NCBI GenBank assembly: GCA_026874595.1
Contig: CM049306.1
Coordinates: forward strand, 43,276,019 to 43,340,018
DNA: 64,000 nucleotides
Source of the DNA: Sipunculus nudus
Lineage: Eukaryota; Annelida; Sipuncula; Golfingiida; Sipunculidae
Direction of reading: 5' to 3'
Below are positions 9,444 through 44,600 of the stretch, piece by piece. The notes beneath the pieces were generated by a model, which saw only the letters and a program-made list of their open reading frames with translations, was not told the DNA's origin and searched no databases. The position numbers and the translations under genes were made by a program. How positions within the stretch are numbered: position 1 is the first letter of the stretch; each line of letters starts with the position of its first letter.

Positions 9444-12400
9444 CTGAAAGAAGAAAAATATCAACTTTTGAGTACATTAAAACCTGTGTAATAAGACTAC
9501 CCACGGGACTGGCCAAAAGAGGTCTTAATTTGACAAGTGATCATATTAGACAGGTTAGTTATAATCAATATGTAGGTTTTCAGTTCACTCAAGGGTGGTC
9601 TTAATAGACAGGTTGTCTTTCAGACAGGTTCCACTCTATAAAGCAAGAATATTTAACATTTGGCACAAAAAAAATATTTTTTAAAGATGTATACCAAAAC
9701 CTTATGACAAAACAATTTATACTGTGAAATTTATACCTTGAACATGTTAAAGATGCAAAAAGTGCCCCCTCATTGACATTACAAAATACAAGCACAAAAC
9801 ATAATTACAGAACATGTGCAGCCATCTGGTGGAATGAGTTGAATACATAGCTTCTTTAAGCTGAGTAAACCAAGCTGAATACAGACAAGAAAGGGTTAGA
9901 TCCAGCTCCACCTCATAATCATTTAGTTAGGACTGTAGTCAAACATTAATAAATATTAATTTACTATTTAACAAAAAATCAGCCTTCCTAAAATCAGCAC
10001 AATGCGAATTCTGACACAATATGAGCCTATCTTAACATTTATTCATTTGGATATTTAAACACTATGACACCTAAAAGTACAATTTCATTTCTTGTTACAG
10101 TTGTTAGGAAATGTGAAGTCAGACACAAAAAAAAAACTTCAAAGAGAGGTTCTGAGCCAGATAAAACCAGCCAGAGGAGCATTGACCTTGAAGTAATTAG
10201 ATTATGAACTGGTGTTGCATAAATTTAAATTTATAACATATGTGCAGACCTCCTCCAGAAATCTCAATGTTCACCAACAATTTGATAACATTTAGAAGTA
10301 TAAAAATTAAATAATGTTCCTATCTCACTGTAGAGTACGACTGGAAATCGAAGCCACCTAACACTGGTAAAACTTCACCCTGAACAGGACATGTTTCCTA
10401 AACAAATATATATCAGTATCAATTTCTAGTTATTACAATCTGCACAAAACAAAAGCTAATGATTTTTATAATATTGTTCAACTTGTTGTGCAGTTTGTGA
10501 AAATAACATCAAAAGTAGGGGGGGACTGCAGGATGTGATTAAGGCACTGAATTATGTTGCACAGGGTCAATACTTACCAAATACAAACATAACTAATCAG
10601 ATTCTTTCAGAACCTCAGATTCACTCAAGTGTCTAAACCATAGGATAAATCTTTTTGATTTGACAATACCTAGCCCTATGCATGTAAAACGTCAAATGCA
10701 TGGGGCTTGATAAGCAAATGTCCCTCACTTGAATCCTCATTCAATGGAGAGTGCCATAAAACAAGTCCATGGACCTTCCCTTTAAAAACAGAGCTGGGCA
10801 CATTCAAGTGGACTGACTTACCTATATTATCTTTTTCCTTGCATGATATTGAGTAGCAGCATATTTCTCTGTCCTGAATGGCAGAAAGGTTCCTACAAAT
10901 ACAAGGACAGGTGTATATCATGTATCTGTTCAATAGGTAATTAAAATCAGTTACTTTGGGCCTCCCATAAAATAAATGAGCACACATTTCCCACATCAGC
11001 ATGAGAAAAAGACTTGACAGTTCCTAGCTACCATAACTTGAAGAGTGCTTTGCACTTGAGACATGAATATAACCTGGTGTTCTGCACTCCTGACACATGA
11101 AAGATCCATAGGGACATCATATCTACCTGTCCTAATTGTATGAAAGTTATAAACTATTTACCAGCCAAATAATGTGTGGTCTAAAATGCCTGTTTTGTCC
11201 TACACAGCCTGTTGTTGTTTTCCAAAGCACATACTAACCCAGTTTGAAAATGACGAAGTAGCCGTTCAAAATGGAGAGGTATATGGTAAATGTAAAAAAT
11301 CCCGTCTTACACCCGGTTCTGTTTTTAGTATACAAGTATAAAAGTCACAACAAATATATTAGATACATGGTTTTCTATTGGAGTAAGATAAAATAAGACA
11401 CCTCCTTAGATAGGTATGTTTAATTCTCACTACAAGTCGAGAAAGATCATTTAAGGAATCAGTCCCTGATGCTGATATAAAGAGTATGAATAATTTGTAT
11501 TGATGTTATTTTTTCAACTACTAGCATATTACAGGTTCATTATCCCCCCCCCCCCCCTCCCCCAACCAGTTTTGTTCCAAATATTATAGATGTGCTGGAA
11601 TTATAAAATCTGGATACACTGGTATAGCTTCTGATCAATGGCACTGAGAAAGTCACTTTGTGAAATCTGCCAAATAATATCAAATTTCTCAGGATTTATG
11701 GGAAATGACCCCGCTTAGGACACACTTGACACATTACTGACATTTCAAGCCTAAAAACACACAAGTGACAATGATTTAGTGCGTCTAATTTAACACACAG
11801 GTTGCTGTTCTTACATTTGTTCTACTATAACTTTTGAGTTAAAGAGGCTTCATTGAGGGCTTTGCGCTTGCATCACAAATATAACCTAGTGTCCTGTACT
11901 CACGAAATGTGAAAGATCCATAGGGTACATCATATCTATCTGTCCTAATTGTATGAAAGTTATAAACCAGCCAAATAATGTGTAGTCTAAAATTCCTGTT
12001 TTGTCCTACATGGCCTGTTTTGTTTTCCCCAAGCACACACAAACCCAGTTTGAAATATGACAAATTGCCGTTCAAAATGGCAAAGTTTATGGTAAATGCC
12101 AATAATCCTGTCTTACACCCGGTTCCATTTTTAGCATACAGGTTGCACAGACATGACAAATATGTCAGATTACACATGGTTTCCTATTGGAGTAAAATAA
12201 AATAAGACGCCTCCTTTGATAGGTATGTTTAATTCTCACTACAAGTCAAGAGAGATCTTTTAACAGTACTTAAATTTATTCTACGAGATCTTTTGAGTTA
12301 ACAGAACTTACATTTATACTACTAGATCATTTGAGTTAACAGTACTTACATTTATTCTACTAGATCTTTTGAATTAACAGTACTTACATTTATTCTATTA

Positions 12401-15400
12401 GATCTTTTGAGTTAACAGTACTTACATTTATTCTACTAGATCTTTTGAGTTAACAGTACTTACATTTATTCTACTAGATCTTTTGAGTTAACAGTACTTA
12501 CATTTATTCTACTAGATCTTTTGAGTTAACAGTACTTACATTTATTCTACTAGATCTTTTGAATTAACAGTACTTACATTTATTCTACTAGACCTTTTGA
12601 GTTAACAGTACTTACATTTATTCTACTAAATCTTTTGAGTTAACAGGACTTACATTTATTCTACTAGATCTTTTGAGTTAACAGTACTTACATTTATTCT
12701 ACTAGATCTTTTGAGTTAACAGTACTTACATTTATTCTACTAGATCTTTTGAGTTAACAGTACTTGCATTCATTCTACTAGGTCTTCTGAGTTAACAGTA
12801 CTTACATTTATTCTATTAGATCTTAGTTTACAGTACTTACATTTGTTCTATTAGATCTTCTGAGTATACAGTACTTACATTTATTCTACTAGGTCTTCTG
12901 AGTTAACAGTACTTACATTTATTCTACTAGGTCTTCTGAGTTTACAGTACTTACATTTGTTCTTTTAGATCTTCTGAGAATACAGTACTTACATTTGTTC
13001 TATTAGATCTTTCTCATCGAGAGCACCGGGAAGGTCCCGTTTGTTACCTAGGACCAGGATAGGTATCCCCTGCAGCTGGGGTTTGTCCAGCAAATTGTGC
13101 AGTTCATTCCTAGAGGCTTCAATCTTCTCGTGGTCAGCTGCATCAACCATGTATCTGTTCAATAGGTAATTTGAAGTATACAGTAATAAATTTTTACAAC
13201 CTTTCTCATAAACATGTTAGGACAAATTTAGAATTAGATGTCAGACTGGCAGTACTTTGTGAAGAAGATTCATCATTCAAAATTGGACCCAAAAGTAGAC
13301 CTCATTTTGCCAAACTGACTACAATGTTTGGTGTAATAGTATTTGTATATTTACAATCAATCTTGCTATTAACATGCAATTTTAAATAAATTAAATTTTA
13401 AACATAAAAATGCAGTTTTATCATATTGTCTTGTAGTTGAAAAGAAACATCGTACAAATGAGCTGCTTTTCTTTAGAATTAAAAAAATTTGAAAAAAAGA
13501 TTATACATATCTTCAAAATATAAAAATATAACATTTGCCAATTTTACATGAAATAAAAATAAAATATATATTTAGAATGGAGGACCACATAAAAAGTATT
13601 TCTATGTGGATTTTTATACAGGGCTCAAGCAAGGTATGCAACATAAAGTACAATGAATTCATAAAACCACTCCTCAAAAGTAAACATGATGATCGACTAA
13701 TGCACTCGAGGTTAATAGTTAGTACCAGACAAGCATGGCTATGAACATAGATGAATATTGTTATCTTACACAATAGCATTGACTCCTCTGCAGTATCGCT
13801 CCCACATGCTCCTAAATCGAGGCTGACCACCAATATCCCATAACTGAAATAAAAGAACATCAGGCCAGCTGGCAAAATCAACAAGTTTAAGTTCCTCAGG
13901 TGAGTTATGAAACACTTCACATTCAATATAAAATGGTACATATAGGTTATATCAATATTTGATGTGTGCTGAATAAATGTCTTATTCAAGTGCCTGATAT
14001 TATAAAAAATCTTCCTGTCTGGCTTGTACTGAACATTACTTTTTTTATTATATTACCTTTTTTAAACTGCTCAAGGAATCTTTGGGGAACTATTCAGAAT
14101 TTCCCTCATTTTCACAATGAAGCACGTGGCATCAGGCCATTTTTAGCTGGTCTTGTATGCAGATTACGTAATTTTGTTTTGTTCCTATAAACATAAATAT
14201 TCTTTGGGCATTTCAACAAAGACAGATTGCCTTCAGAGCCTTAACTTAAAATAATTGTGAACATAACCATGGTGACAAAATTATCATAGAAGAAGCTTTT
14301 ACTTTTTTCAATTGTGTAAATCAAGTTATATGATTATATCAAGTCTCTGTATTCTTTATGAACTATAAAGGAGGGTCACCAACCTTAATAGTAACATTTC
14401 CTTTTGTAATCTTCCTCATGTTGAAACCAACTGTTGGAATCATATCTTCACTGAACTGGCCAGACTGAAAGGGACAATGGAAACAAAATGTATAAAGAAC
14501 TGTATATTGAGACCTGGCAAGATTCTCATTTACATTGGCATCATTCTCTAACTTATATCTATCAAATCTCAACAGAGCTTGGTAGAGTTCAAAAGAATTT
14601 TTATTGATGATTGATCATGAAATTTCCACTGGTTCTGTAACACTACAATAAATAAATAAAGGTGGTTACAATTTCAAATGGATTTTAACTTATATGACAA
14701 GCTAAAAACTGTTATATGAACTCCTTCATATAGAACAAGGCAAATGTGTTAAATGCATTACTCACACTGGTCAAGTTCTGACACATTTGCATAAAGTTTC
14801 AACTAATGAGCATTAACTTCATCATTAACTTCATCATTGTGCAATATTTATAGTAATACATATATATATATATATATGTAAAGTTACAGATTAAAAATAT
14901 GCTTGTCAATTCAGTCATTTGCATAAAAATCCAAAACAAAATCAAAACATGCTTATTTCACGTGTTTATCTCACCTGCAATTGGCAGAAAAAAATGATTA
15001 ATGACAGACTAATCAGTTCAAGTAGATAACCTAAAATTTATGTCTAATTTACAATTGTCCTCTGAACCAGAGGCAGAAAAAGAAACATTTAACCTATCAG
15101 TGTAACAGGTTATTAGGTCCTAACCATTCACTGGGCAGTACAGACTAAACATAATCTATATGATCTATCCAAAAGCCTGACAGAGGCTGACCAGATCCTG
15201 GACCCGCATGTGCTAGACGAGTGATATATTGTTAGATCTGTGATATATTACTGTCAACGCTGATTGACTGTAATCATACAGCTGTTTACTGACTGATTAA
15301 TGACCAGGTGAACAGTCAGTGTGTTTTGAACCTGGTGCCCTGTTTAATGAGTTCTCTGGCACCTGCACTATGGCATGTCTGATCAATGACATTTACTCAG

Positions 15401-17615: not shown

Positions 17616-18589
17616 GTGAGTAGCCCCGTTAACTACTCTGTTCGCGCCCATTCCACGTTCATATATTTATGAATGAACTGGTCAAGATAGTATCACTTAT
17701 AAATGCGTGAAATCCTTTGACACCAGCACAAATAAGGAATCGATGCCACCAAAATATGAAGCTTACGGTTCAGTTTAGATGATTTGTTTGAATTTTAATA
17801 CAACTGTAGTATGAAATGTGAATTGCTATAATAATTTTGTGCAGGTTTAATTGTTACTATCCACAGACCATGACATGATTGCTGCATTAGTTACCTCTGG
17901 GTTATATGGTGAATACAAGTTGACAAGAGGAAAATGGCGTTTAACATGTGGTCCGATTGGTATATACCACTGGCGGACTGTGGTTTCAAGTAACCCCATT
18001 TGTCCTATTTGGCGACCTTCGCCTTTATCCACGTCAATGAAAGCACCCAGGGAGCATATAATGGAACCAAGATTACACTAGTGAACAAAGTTGCTTCCAG
18101 TGACAAATAAAATTGAACAAATGTGACATGAAATTCATTATAAATCAGTTTCTGTTTGGTTACTGTGACAACCTAGACATCCGGTAAGTGGACCTTTTGT
18201 TGGGAAACAAAAGGTTTCAGGTTGTTTGCACTACTTGACATCTGGTGATTACCGTTACAAATCCCAGAGGTTACAAATACAGCATTGGACATCAGGGCTT
18301 TGATGTATATTTTATAAGAATAATAAGTGGCATCCAAACCCACAAGCAGTGTGAGTGATCCTTTTGTACAGTATCACCCATCTTCACAGTGTTTCACCAT
18401 GTGCAACCAGCCAATGCAATCATCACTGAAAAGTTAAAACCAGCGGTAGGTGCACAGCAGATACATCCAGGACAGCAGCACCATGCCATCATCCCTGAAA
18501 ATGAAAAAGAACTGTGCAGATATCCCCTGGCATAACTTACAATTAACAAAATATATTGTAGAAACTCTCACTTATAGGTAATCTTAATG

Positions 18590-20365
18590 CTCATGCCCCT
18601 GTCCGTTAACCCTGTTGCATAGTGACACCCAGGACAGCAACCCCAAGCTAGTGTCCCTGTCCATTAATCCTTTTATACAGTTACACCAAGGACAGTTTCC
18701 CTATGCTCATGTCCCTGTCTATAAACCCTGTTGCATAGTTTCACCCAGGACATCATCGCGAAGCTAGTGTCCCTAATCATTAACCCTTTTGCACAGTGAC
18801 ATCAAGGACAGCATAACCATGCTAGTGTCCCTGACCATTAATCCTGTTGCACATTTACACCAAGGACAGCAACCCAAAGCTACATTCCCAGTCCATTAAT
18901 CCTGTTGCACAGTTACACCCAGGACAGCAACCCCACGCTACAGTCCCAGTCCATTTATCTTGTTATACAGTTACACCCATGACAGTATCCCTACGCACAT
19001 GTCCCTGTTGTCAATTAACCCTTTTGCACAGTTATCCACAAGATTCCCTGTCCATTTACCCTGTTGCACAGTTACACCCAGGACAGCCTCCCAAGGTTAG
19101 TGTCCCTGTCAATTAACCCTGTTGCCCATTAACACCCAGGACTGCCTACCCAAGCTAGTGTCCCTGTCGATTAACCCTGTTGCACACTTAAACCCAGGAC
19201 AGCCTCCCCTAGCTAGTGTCCCTGTCTATTAACCCTGTTTCACATTTACACCCAGGACAGCCTCCTGATGCTAGTGTCCCTGTCCATTTACCCTGTTCCA
19301 CAGTTAACCCTAGTACAGCATCCCCAAGCTAGTGTCTCTGTCCATTAACCCCGCTGCTCAGTTACCCCAAGAACAGCCTCCCAATGCTAGTGTCCCTGTC
19401 CATTAACCCTGTTGCACAGTTACACCCAGGACAGCCTCCTGATGCTAGTGTCCCTGACCATTAACCTTGTTCCACAGTTACACCCAGGACAATTCCCAAG
19501 ATAGTGTCCCTGTCCATTAACCCTGTTGCACACGTACAACCAGGACAGCATCCCCAAGCTAGTGGCCCTGTCCATTAATCCTGTAATACAGTTACACCCA
19601 GGACATCATCCCCAAGCTAGTGTCCCTGTCCATGAACCCTAATGCACAGTTACCCCCAGGACATCATCCCCAAGCTAGTGTCCCTGACCATTAACCCTGT
19701 TCCACAGTTACACCCAGGACATCATCCCCAAGCTAGTGTCCCTGTCCATTAACCCTGTTCCACAGTTACACCCAGGACATCATCCCCAAGCTAGTGTCCC
19801 TGTCCATTAACCCTGTTCCACAGTTACACCCAGGACATCATCCCAAAGCTAGTGCCCCTGTCCATTAACCCTGTTCCACAGTTACACCCAGGACATCATC
19901 CCAAAGCCAGTGTCCCTGTCCATAAACCCTGTTCCACAGTTACCCCCAGGATATCATCCCCAAGCTAGTGTCCCTGACCATTAACCTTGTTCCACAGTTA
20001 CACCCAGGACATCATCCCCAAGCTTTTGTCCCTGTCCATCAATCTTGTTCCACAGTTACACCCAGGACATCATCCCCAAGCTAGTGTCCCTGTCCATTAA
20101 CCCTGTTCCACAGTTACACCCAGGACATCATCCCCAAGCTAGTGTCCCTGTCCATTAACCCTGTTCCACAGTTACACCCAGGACATCATCCCCAAGCTAG
20201 TGTCCCTGTCCATTACCCCTGTTCCACAGTTACACCCAGGACATCATCCCCAAGCTAGTGTCCCTGTCCATTAACCCTGTTCCACAGTTACACCCAGGAC
20301 ATCATCCCCAAGCTAGTGTCCCTGTCCATTAACCCTGTTCCACAGTTACACCCAGGACAGTGATA
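18590..20365. repeat. 58-bp minisatellite in intron 1 of the C3orf18-like gene
   Basis: About 30 tandem units of the type AGCTAGTGTCCCTGTCCATT, AACCCTGTTCCACAGTTACA, CCCAGGACATCATCCCCA. The left half (to about 19500) is diverged with indels. The right half (about 19650-20360) is almost uniform at 58 bp, a sign of recent homogenisation there. Confidence 0.95.
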
Positions 20366-29329: not shown

Positions 29330-30100
29330 ATATTTTGAGATTGTGCTGCTTGCTGACATACAGCAGTTATACCTACAGATTTTGAGATTATCTTTATTAA
29401 CTGGCACATTTTGAGACGCGTGTTGTTGCTGACAAGTTTGTTGATAGGTATCACACATTTGGAGAACGGCATTGATGACGCATTGGAGTCTGGCTTCTGA
29501 TAATACATATTTTAATAGGCCTTGGTGACTCATTTGGAGATAGACCATGCTGATACATTTGGAGATATGCAATGCTGACATGTTTGGAGATAGATGTCTT
29601 TGACACTTTTGGATAAAGGTATGATTAGGACATTTGGAGATGGGCATGGTTGATACTTTCAGCATTAGCAATGCTAACACTTTGGGAGATAGGCATTAGT
29701 GGCACTTTTTGAGATAGAGATTGCTGTAACTTTTGGAGATAGGCATTGCTGACACTTTAAGAAATATGCAATGCTGACATGTTTGGAGATGGATGGTGTT
29801 GACAATTTTAAATATAGGCATGACTAGTACACTTTGAGAAAGGCATTGCCAACGCTTTTGGAGACAAGCATTTGCTGACTTGTTTGGAGGTTGACACTGC
29901 TGACACTTTTGGAGATTAATGTACTTTTTGAGATAGGCATGGTTGACACATTCAGAGATAGACAGTGTTAAATGACACAATTAGAATGTGACTTTGCTAG
30001 CTGACAGTTCTATGAGATCAATTATTCTTCCTGACATGTTTGGAGATTTTATGTGCCTGCTGCTTTATATCTTAGAGTGGTATTTCTTTATGACACATTT
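29330..30100. repeat. Degenerate 30-bp tandem repeat
   Basis: About 25 diverged units around GACACTTTTGGAGATAGGCA followed by TTGCT. Because the unit is near 30 bp, the minus strand shows 10-residue periodic ORFs (29270-29980); these are by-products. Confidence 0.8.
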
Positions 30101-30127
30101 GGATTTAGTCTATGCTAGTTGACACAT

Positions 30128-30770
30128 TTCTGTGCCAGATGACACATTTTGAGACTGAGCTGTCTCACATTTTATATATGAGAATGATAGTTCACTGGGA
30201 CAACGTGTGAGACTAGTTTGACTGTGGAGGTTGACACATTTTCAACTCTGCTGAGATTGAGCTGGCTCACATTTTATATATGAGAATGGTAGTTCACTGG
30301 GACAACGTGTGAGACTAGTTTGACTGTGGAGGTTGACACAATTTCAACTCTGCTGAGATTGAGCTGGCTCACATTTTATATATGAGAATGGTAGTTCACT
30401 GGGACACAGTGTGAGACTGTAGTTTGACTGTGGAGGTTGACACATTTCAACTCTGCTGAGATTGAGCTGTCTCACATTTTATATATGAGAATGGTAGTTC
30501 ACTGGGACACAGTGTGAGACTAGTTTGACTGTGGAGGTTGACACATTTCAACTCTGCTGAGATTGAGCTGTCTCACATTTTATATATGAGAATGGTAGTT
30601 CACTGGGACACAGTGTGAGACTGTAGATTGACTGTGGAGGTTGACACATTTTCAACTCTGCTGAGATTGAGCTGTCTCACATTTTATATATGAGAATGGT
30701 AGTTCACTGGGACACAGTGTGAGACTGTAGTTTGACTGTGGAGGTTGACACATTTTCAACTCTGCCAGCT
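30128..30770. repeat. Tandem repeat, about 103-bp unit, six copies
   Basis: Near-identical units each contain CTCACATTTTATATATGAGA, TGGTAGTTCACTGGGACA and TTTGACTGTGGAGGTTGACA. Period 102-105 bp with small indels (AACG or ACAG variants). It directly follows the 30-bp array. Confidence 0.92.
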
Positions 30771-42669: not shown

Positions 42670-44600
42670 CTGCTTTTTCTGGCTGCCATGGAAATGTCAG
42701 AAAGCACGGAGCCATGCTTTGTCGGGCTGCAATGGAAATGTCAGAAAGCAAACAGTCATGCTTTGTCTGGCTGCCATGGAAATGTCAAAAAGCACAGAGC
42801 AATGCTTTGTCTGGCTGCCATGGAAATATCAGAAAGCACAGAGCCATGCTTTGTCTGGCTGCCATGGAAATATCAGAAAGTACAGAGCCATGCATAGTCT
42901 GGCTGCCAGGGAAATAACAGAAAGCACAGAGCAATGCTTTGTCGGGCTGCCATGGAAATATCAGAAAGTACAAAGCCATGCTTTGTCTGGCGGCCATAGA
43001 AATATCAGAAAGCACAGAGCCATGCTTTGTCTGGCTGCCATGGAAATATCAGTAAGCCCAGAGCCATTTTTTGTCTGGCTGCCATGGAAATGTCAGAAAG
43101 CACAGAACCATGCTTTGTCTGGCTGCCATGGAAATGTCAGAAAGAAGAAAGCCATGCTTTTTCTGGCTGCCATGGAAATATCAGTAAGCACAGAGCCATG
43201 CATTGTCTGGCTGCCATGGAAATATCAGAAAGCACAGAGCCATGCTTTGTCTGGCTGCCATGGAAATGTCAAAAAGCAAACAGCCATGCTTTGTCTGGCA
43301 GCAATGGAAATGTCAGAAAGGATAGAGCCATGGTTTGTCTGGCTGCCATGCAAATATCAGAAAGCACAGAGCCATGCTTTGTCTGGCTGCCATGGAAAAA
43401 TCAGAAAACACAGAGCCATTCATAGTCTGGCTGCCAGGGAAATATCAGAGAGCACAGAACCATGCTTTGTCTGGCTGCCATGGAAATGTCAGAAAGAAGA
43501 AGCAATGCTTTATTCTGGCTGCAATGGATATGTCAGAAAGCAAAGAGCCTTGCTTTGTCTGGCAGCCATGGAAATATCAGAAAGCACAGAGCCATGCTTT
43601 GTCTGGCTGCCATGGAAATATCAGAAAGCACAGAGCCATGCTTTATCTGGCTGCCATGGAAATGTCAAAAAGAAGAAAACCATGCTTTTTCTGGCTGCAA
43701 TGGAAATGTCAGAAAGCAGTGAGCCTTGCTTTGTCTGGCTGCCATGGAAATATCAGAAAGCTCAGAGCCATGTTTTGTCTGGCTGCCATGGAAATATCAG
43801 AAAGCACAGAGCCATTCATTGTCTGGCTGCCATGGAAATATCAGAAAGCATAGAGTCATGTTTTGTCTGGCTGCCATGGAAATATCAGAAAGCACAGAGC
43901 CATGCATTGTCTGGCTGCCATGGAAATGTCAAAAAGCAAACAGCCATGCTTTGTCTGGCAGCAATGGAAATGTCAGAAAGGATAGAGCCATGGTTTGTCT
44001 GGCTGCCATGCAAATATCAGAAAGCACAGAGCCATGCTTTGTCTGGCTGCCATGCAAATATCAGAAAGCACAGAGCCATTCATAGACTGGCTGCCAGGGA
44101 AATATCAGAAAGCACAGAGCCATGAATTGTCTGGCTGCCATGGAAATATCAGAAAGCACAGAGCCATGCTTTGTCTAGCTGCCATGGAAATATCAGAAAG
44201 CACAGAGCCATGCTTTGTCTGGCTGCCATGGAAATATCAGAAAGCACAGAGCCATGCTTTGTCTGGCTGCCAGGGAAATATCAGAAAGCATAGAGCCATG
44301 CTTTGTCTGGCTGCCATGGAAATGTCAGAAAGAAGAAAGCCATGCTTTTTCTGGCTGAAATGGAAATGTCAGAAAGCACAGAACCTTGCTTTGTCTGGCT
44401 GCCATGAAAATGTCAGAAAGAAGAAAGCCATGCTTTTTCTGGCTGCAATGGAAATGTCAGAAAGCAAAGAGCCTTGCTTTGTCTCGCTGCCATGGAAATA
44501 TCAGAAAGCACAGAGCCATGCTTTGTCTGGCTGCAATGGAAATATCAGAAAAAAGAAAGCCATGCTTTTTCTGGCTGAAATGGAAATGTTAGAGACCACA
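42670..44600. repeat. 44-bp minisatellite with higher-order structure
   Basis: About 44 units of the type CTTTGTCTGGCTGCCATGGA, AATATCAGAAAGCACAGAGC, CATG. Variant units (AATGTCAGAAAGAAGAAAGC, or GGCAGCAATGG) recur in fixed order: 43261-43440 is nearly the same as 43921-44100, 660 bp (15 units) away. The unit has no stop trinucleotide in any forward frame, so long ORFs (for example 42641-44125, 494 codons) appear in all three frames with a 44-residue period. Confidence 0.95.

Follow-up and report, generated by a model that had tools for sequence, protein, structure and literature searches.

A minisatellite of exon-intron junction copies in the ARL8 gene of Sipunculus nudus, probably a mirage of the amphioxus kind

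The ARL8 gene of Sipunculus nudus contains a minisatellite built from copies of the junction between its exon 4 and intron 4, which we analysed within a 64,000-nucleotide stretch of the genome (hereafter the window; assembly GCA_026874595.1, contig CM049306.1, positions 43,276,019 to 43,340,018 of the forward strand; positions without a contig are those of the window) and compare here with the closest systems described. The original report of such repeats, termed mirages, is said to be that of Canestro et al. 2002. In the parts of two papers that deal with them, amphioxus mirages are minisatellite-like tandem duplications of exon-intron boundaries, which can involve either boundary and are said not to disturb regular splicing; they occur in Adh3, in the globin genes BflGb6 and BflGb9 and in troponin C, with similar repeats in PGBD5 (PMC3087553, PMC3902484). 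For human ABCA7, the account of the variable number tandem repeat (VNTR) in intron 18 gives unit retention in 2 ± 1% of transcripts at steady state, independent of length, while expression falls and the next exon is skipped more often as arrays get longer (PMC5954066). Two further phenomena share with the ARL8 array a tandem duplication at a splice junction that alters gene structure, namely human exon-intron boundaries with variable internal tandem repeats (PMC2812944) and the gain of introns through tandem duplication (PMC4974935), but these are discussed as sources of new introns, whereas the ARL8 copies lie inside an existing one, the gene model placing the whole array within one intron. 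No report of mirages outside cephalochordates was found in the literature searched, which does not rule out that one exists. Repeats of the kind to which the ARL8 array belongs are known, but descriptions of them are rare.

Six ARL8 exons were placed on the minus strand, and the best PDB match of the predicted protein of 185 amino acids is ARL8A (E 9.5e-117; ARL8A/B were matched). Among the 24 genome matches listed, none beyond the ARL8 locus exceeded 39% identity, and within the scope of this search ARL8 seems to be present only once. The gene and its array comprise:

16574-16452, 14464-14384 and 13843-13770, minus strand: ARL8 exons 1 to 3.
12993-13154, minus strand: ARL8 exon 4, 162 nt, with phase-2 introns on both sides; the repeat unit takes its exonic part from the last 18 or so bases of this exon.
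12983-12992, minus strand: true exon-4 donor, GTAAGTACTG, with a U1 duplex energy of -6.8 kcal/mol.
12260-12992, minus strand: junction array of 19 copies in 38-bp units, one of them 35 bp, with 17 GTAAGT, one GCAAGT and one TTAAGT.
11843-12259, no strand assigned: interspersed repeat of 417 bp inserted in the array, with TTAA at 11839-11842 and 12260-12263.
11801-11838, minus strand: orphan array unit beyond the insertion, in register and 30/38 identical to the consensus of Tandem Repeats Finder (TRF), with a donor-like GTAAGA at 11814.
10822-10892, minus strand: ARL8 exon 5, 71 nt, partner of the exon-4 donor.
9443-9397, minus strand: ARL8 exon 6.

We confirmed the original prediction of about 20 tandem 38-bp copies of the exon-4 donor, as TRF returned a period of 38, 19.9 copies and 92% matches over 12260-13012, with 19 units beyond the exon. 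The 17 intact decoy donors claimed in the correct orientation were also recovered: GTAAGT occurs 18 times on the minus strand, comprising the true donor at 12992 and 17 decoys, and the remaining two units read GCAAGT (12767) and TTAAGT (12273). Each unit consists of about 18-19 bases from the end of exon 4 and about 19 bases of intron. As in mirages, tandem units span an exon-intron boundary and carry splice signals (GTAAGT in 17/19), and a comparison of the units, which covers one allele only, showed near-identical inner units and diverged edge units, i.e. concerted evolution inside the array with the edges excluded. As in the ABCA7 VNTR, a tandem repeat abuts an exon and takes in its donor.

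The likeness to amphioxus mirages, as these are portrayed in the parts of the papers concerned, therefore covers tandem boundary copies with splice signals, on the donor or the acceptor side, with a homogenised middle and diverged edges. The ARL8 unit length falls within the 10-72 bp given for the amphioxus Adh3 mirage, whereas the globin mirages have units of 150-160 bp, present in 6 and 3 copies in two BflGb6 haplotypes, compared to 38 bp x 19 in ARL8. Unlike the amphioxus mirages in these accounts, the ARL8 array is split by a transposable element, and its host is probably of another animal group: the genome encodes an FMRFamide precursor with many FMRFGKR/FMRFGR repeats, a lophotrochozoan trait, which suggests a lophotrochozoan and probably not a cephalochordate, while a search for GFP was uninformative, its controls giving no signal either. 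With regard to ABCA7, splicing at the donor of the next unit is stated to leave one unit in the transcript, with a frame shift and a premature stop, and the ARL8 decoys would likewise lead to a premature stop. The ABCA7 repeat starts at the GT, whereas the ARL8 unit also contains about 18 exon bases; the former has GC-rich units of 25 bp whose number is polymorphic, ranging from about 12 to 427, whereas the ARL8 array is known from one assembly. We consider it quite likely that the ARL8 array is a mirage, namely a minisatellite that arose by tandem duplication across an exon-intron junction, is tolerated and is spliced at the first donor, which would extend mirages beyond amphioxus, probably to another animal group.

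The unit is specific to this locus. A 28-base unit pattern, with up to three mismatches allowed, matched 21 places in the 1.43-Gb genome, of which 20 are at ARL8 (the exon plus the 19 copies) and the 21st, with three mismatches, is on contig C14; searching the unit against the rest of the genome, as the original prediction had proposed, thus led us to reject a dispersed satellite. The predicted growth of the array from the junction was supported as well: the units match the junction and their exonic half encodes EKDLIEQM, a conserved stretch of ARL8, so that copying ran from exon to intron. Judged from its sequence, the array consists of copies of the exon-4/intron-4 junction. The claim that units close to the exon preserve its spelling exactly held only loosely: the copy at 12840 matches 18/18 exonic bases and that at 12954 17/18, but those at 12916 and 12878 match 15/18 each, and the distant copy at 12387 also reaches 17/18. 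It is highly improbable that the array is an artefact of assembly or that a dispersed satellite came to lie next to ARL8: although the copy number of tandem arrays is prone to misassembly, 753 bp is short for long reads, the units differ among themselves, an element sits inside the array and the unit is locus-specific.

The inserted element gives an indication of age. It had 864 first-look candidates in the genome, of which 40 were scored including the ARL8 copy, the other 39 at 82-85% identity. TTAA flanks the ARL8 copy at either end, and inspection by eye found the same for 7 of 13 other copies (in three of these 13 the left end fell outside the match), which agrees with a TTAA-targeting (piggyBac-type) element. 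Deleting the element restores a unit in register across the TTAA, and the next best match to the unit anywhere else in the window, leaving the array aside, reaches a score of 24, compared to 30/38 for the orphan. Given the TTAA flanks and the in-register orphan past the repeat, the element must have jumped into a pre-existing array. We rejected the array as a part of the neighbouring element, since the element interrupts it and none of the 13 other copies inspected has an array at its end. Divergence is 11.5% for the element copy, measured against the leave-one-out majority of 13 others, and 13% (5/38) for the orphan unit, measured against the array majority, so that the array looks old; its inner units are still near-identical, and turnover since the insertion seems to have taken place. 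The exon, two units close to it (12954, 12840) and the orphan carry AACAAAT, while AATAAAT is found in 15/19 copies, as expected if the inner variant was amplified later. A second copy of the roughly 410-bp repeat lies in the ARL8 region at 11043-11454.

The decoys are, as far as predicted pairing goes, good donors: the U1 duplex energy equals that of the true donor in 15/19 copies and is weaker in the other four (the U1 5' end used for pairing is present in locus L025). We computed the product at all 19 decoy positions and obtained ...LIEQM-stop after residue 147 each time, in agreement with the truncation originally predicted; each decoy yields ATG TAA (M147-stop) because intron 4 is in phase 2, and the stop sits 105-786 nt ahead of the last exon junction. 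An explanation based on these properties is that the array tunes ARL8 by copy number, with more decoys giving more M147-stop transcripts and nonsense-mediated decay (NMD), or a longer array giving exon 5 skipping. It is favoured by U1 pairing equal to the true donor in most decoys, by the NMD-type stop that every decoy produces, by the apparent single copy of ARL8 and by ABCA7, where the text on the VNTR reports falling expression and rising exon 19 skipping with longer arrays (PMC5954066). We nevertheless regard it as unlikely, as unit retention in ABCA7 is independent of length and, according to the authors in that text, does not explain the lower expression (PMC5954066), amphioxus mirages are reported, where they are described, without interference in splicing (PMC3087553, PMC3902484), and the structure is present in several unrelated genes of this genome (see below). 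The published precedents would thus mostly argue against copy-number tuning through NMD.

Hiding of the decoys by RNA structure was not supported by modelling, in which folding of the array RNA was predicted to be weaker than that of 60 shuffles (z +3.0), with an unpaired probability of 0.31-0.77 for the decoys and 0.60 for the true donor. Donor columns vary less than the rest of the unit (0.33 vs 0.94 changes per column), but this is uninformative as to purifying selection, as the donor window is one of 8 among the 38 overlapping six-column windows with equally low values.

AATAAA occurs 15 times in the array on the ARL8 sense strand, in 14 cases directly before GTAAGT, and 0 times on the other strand; these hexamers apparently stem from a C-to-T change in the inner units. 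As the inner units read AATAAATGTAAGT, in which a U1 site and a poly(A) signal stand a single base apart, it is conceivable that U1 silences poly(A) signals here and that loss of U1 leads to premature polyadenylation and a stable 147-residue ARL8. The arrangement of the hexamers fits this, but AATAAA is missing from the exon, from four copies (12954, 12840, 12767, 12311) and from the orphan, and among 15 other junction arrays counted it occurs more than once only in L032 (three times), three others having one, which makes such a role very unlikely. Neither this role nor tuning by copy number is supported, possible as both are. The original prediction also raised a U1 small nuclear ribonucleoprotein (snRNP) sink, to which a protective U1 platform for the transcript may be added. 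Although 17 GTAAGT decoys lie within one intron, the genome holds at least 42 U1 genes of equal score, and sites on the nascent RNA of one gene were reasoned to be too few to matter; this idea is barely credible and was not supported. The U1 small nuclear RNA genes form two clusters, at C6:50.26-50.37 Mb and at 88.24-88.30 Mb.

The reading as a mirage implies a simple sequence of events. Tandem duplication across the exon-4/intron-4 junction would have been followed by expansion and homogenisation through ordinary tandem-repeat turnover, by unequal exchange or slippage. Exon definition would pair the exon-4 acceptor with the nearest donor, so that the first donor is used, a small leak to the decoys would give M147-stop transcripts removed by NMD, and the array would be close to neutral. 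Arrays that would be harmful under heavy decoy use have not been weeded out, which fits rare decoy use. The array probably leaves splicing mostly undisturbed, and it is most likely a by-product of minisatellite growth. Several points weigh against this interpretation. In classical experiments with duplicated donors, the copy proximal to the intron is often preferred, so that the decoys would be expected to be used. Growth and homogenisation were read from one sequence (one haplotype, one species), and first-donor use in ARL8 is something that we infer. In addition, the ABCA7 account states that blocking NMD with cycloheximide raised premature-stop transcripts substantially (PMC5954066); as the 2% is a steady-state figure, real decoy use may therefore exceed it.

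Treating the array as a single oddity, as the original prediction did, proved incorrect. We surveyed 29 other minisatellites with tandem GTAAGT, obtained from two genome pattern scans, and inspected their upstream edges. The GTAAGT scan gave 13,947 places, and seven arrays, all located within the first 3 Mb of contig C1, were taken from the 100 places listed; three C1 places at 2.988-2.994 Mb that share one unit entered as a single array. The other 22 arrays were taken from 100 listed places among the 820 of the AGGTAAGT scan. For L034 and L055 the upstream edge was not covered, and L033, L045, L046 and L048, with open frames below 20 amino acids, were left out of the homology searches. Nine of the 29 arrays begin inside an exon with protein homology:

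L028 and L029, C1:421-440 kb, same strand, about 17 kb apart: successive parts of a Raf-like RBD (E 3.7e-5 and 4.1e-8), with 35-bp and 54-bp units.
L032: CNNM (E 1.3e-12, PDB search).
L039: PH domain (E 0.0012, PDB search, frame chosen by hand).
L040: ABC transporter membrane domain (E 4.5e-6, Pfam).
L042: PKA regulatory subunit I (E 1.1e-25, PDB bearing out Pfam).
L044: 3-hydroxyacyl-CoA dehydrogenase (E 9e-6, Pfam).
L047: ARV1 (E 0.0013, Pfam).
L052: XPD (E 3e-8, PDB search).

L028 and L029 are probably two exons of one RAF-like gene, each with its own donor minisatellite. Seven more arrays (L036, L037, L041, L043, L053, L054, L056) were judged exon-like by eye, without homology; a PDB search with the L037 peptide gave no match. 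In a like-for-like Pfam test (longest open frame, E <= 0.01), a plausible family was found in 5 of 22 upstream peptides (L028, L040, L042, L044 and L047, the scores of all but L044 falling below the Pfam gathering cut-off; a G-gamma match for L043 at 0.01 was disregarded), compared to 0 of 15 mirror controls at E <= 0.05, with 4 further controls too short to search. The PDB searches (L032, L052, L039) and hand-chosen frames (L029, L039) were not given to the controls. On the acceptor side, 2 of 9 sampled TTTCAGG arrays, taken from the start of the C1 list, end at exons with homology, and one more (L066) is exon-like by eye without homology; 8 of the 9 peptides were searched, L061 being too short:

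L065: acceptor minisatellite at an exon of MMS19 (E 2.9e-8, frame picked by hand).
L067: acceptor minisatellite at an exon of the family-X polymerase HHH domain (E 6.1e-8).

The same junction-array structure, as recognised by homology, recurs at several unrelated genes of the Sipunculus nudus genome, with 3 to 30 GTAAGT per junction array counted. As a rough estimate, the genome may hold about a thousand GTAAGT arrays, a few hundred of them at junctions, which is extrapolated from the first 3 Mb of one contig (13,947 places, about 7 arrays per 100, 3/7 at junctions). No selection for frame-keeping units was seen: unit length is a multiple of three in 3/10 (ARL8 plus the nine homology-backed arrays), and in 16 junction arrays including ARL8, use of the first decoy would give a stop in 8 and a frame shift in 6 more, with the frame open and kept in 2 (L040 and L041; L032 could not be evaluated). 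L053 and L056 (C3:73.79 and 73.83 Mb) carry related exon-like stretches (6/101 bases differing) about 37 kb apart, each followed by a 22-bp donor array, of 35 and 20 copies, respectively.

Donor duplication experiments usually use two sites. ARL8 offers 16 tandem donors of equal U1 pairing, with more such genes in the genome, and so provides a test of how the first of them prevails; where such junctions occur, gene annotation and RNA mapping call for care. A more far-reaching idea is that minisatellites are born preferentially at junctions, donors and acceptors alike, through a transcription- or splicing-linked process, with hundreds of genes, among them essential ones, carrying arrays of decoys of full strength that the spliceosome ignores. 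If so, the genome would be a natural large-scale experiment in which the spliceosome picks one donor among many identical ones. Exon-edge arrays make up 3 of 7 for GTAAGT (by homology) and 3 of 9 for TTTCAGG (two by homology, one by eye), and 6/16 gives p 0.003 at a chance of 10% and 0.08 at 20%, the chance of an exon edge being a rough guess of 3-10% from motif counts in one window. Against it, both samples come from the start of the contig C1 list, the chance figure is guessed, and genome-wide neither tandem GTAAGT (13,947 vs 21,499) nor tandem TTTCAGG (4,145 vs 4,943) is in excess over the reversed pattern, which argues against targeted birth; tandem AGGTAAGT shows a slight excess (820 vs 640). 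We hold preferential birth to be doubtful.

An Rfam scan of the window at gathering scores gave no match. A 24-bp segment at 10919-10942 (minus strand), immediately ahead of exon 5, reproduces the exon-4 acceptor region exactly, with its AG 33 nt upstream of the exon, in frame and with the frame open. This segment has two exact places in the genome, both in ARL8, and a third place on contig C16 with two mismatches. In 100 two-base-block shuffles of the ARL8 gene without the array the longest repeat was 16; the real gene without the array also holds a longer repeat of 30, taken to lie in two interspersed-element copies. The 24-bp copy is a possible alternative acceptor, the use of which would add 11 residues. 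Other large minisatellites in the window are found at 18587-20360 (58-bp units), 29515-30765 (25/50- to 102-bp) and 42671-44587 (44-bp). Elsewhere in the genome, L069 (C14:34780500-34781250) encodes an FMRFamide precursor with many FMRFGKR/FMRFGR repeats.

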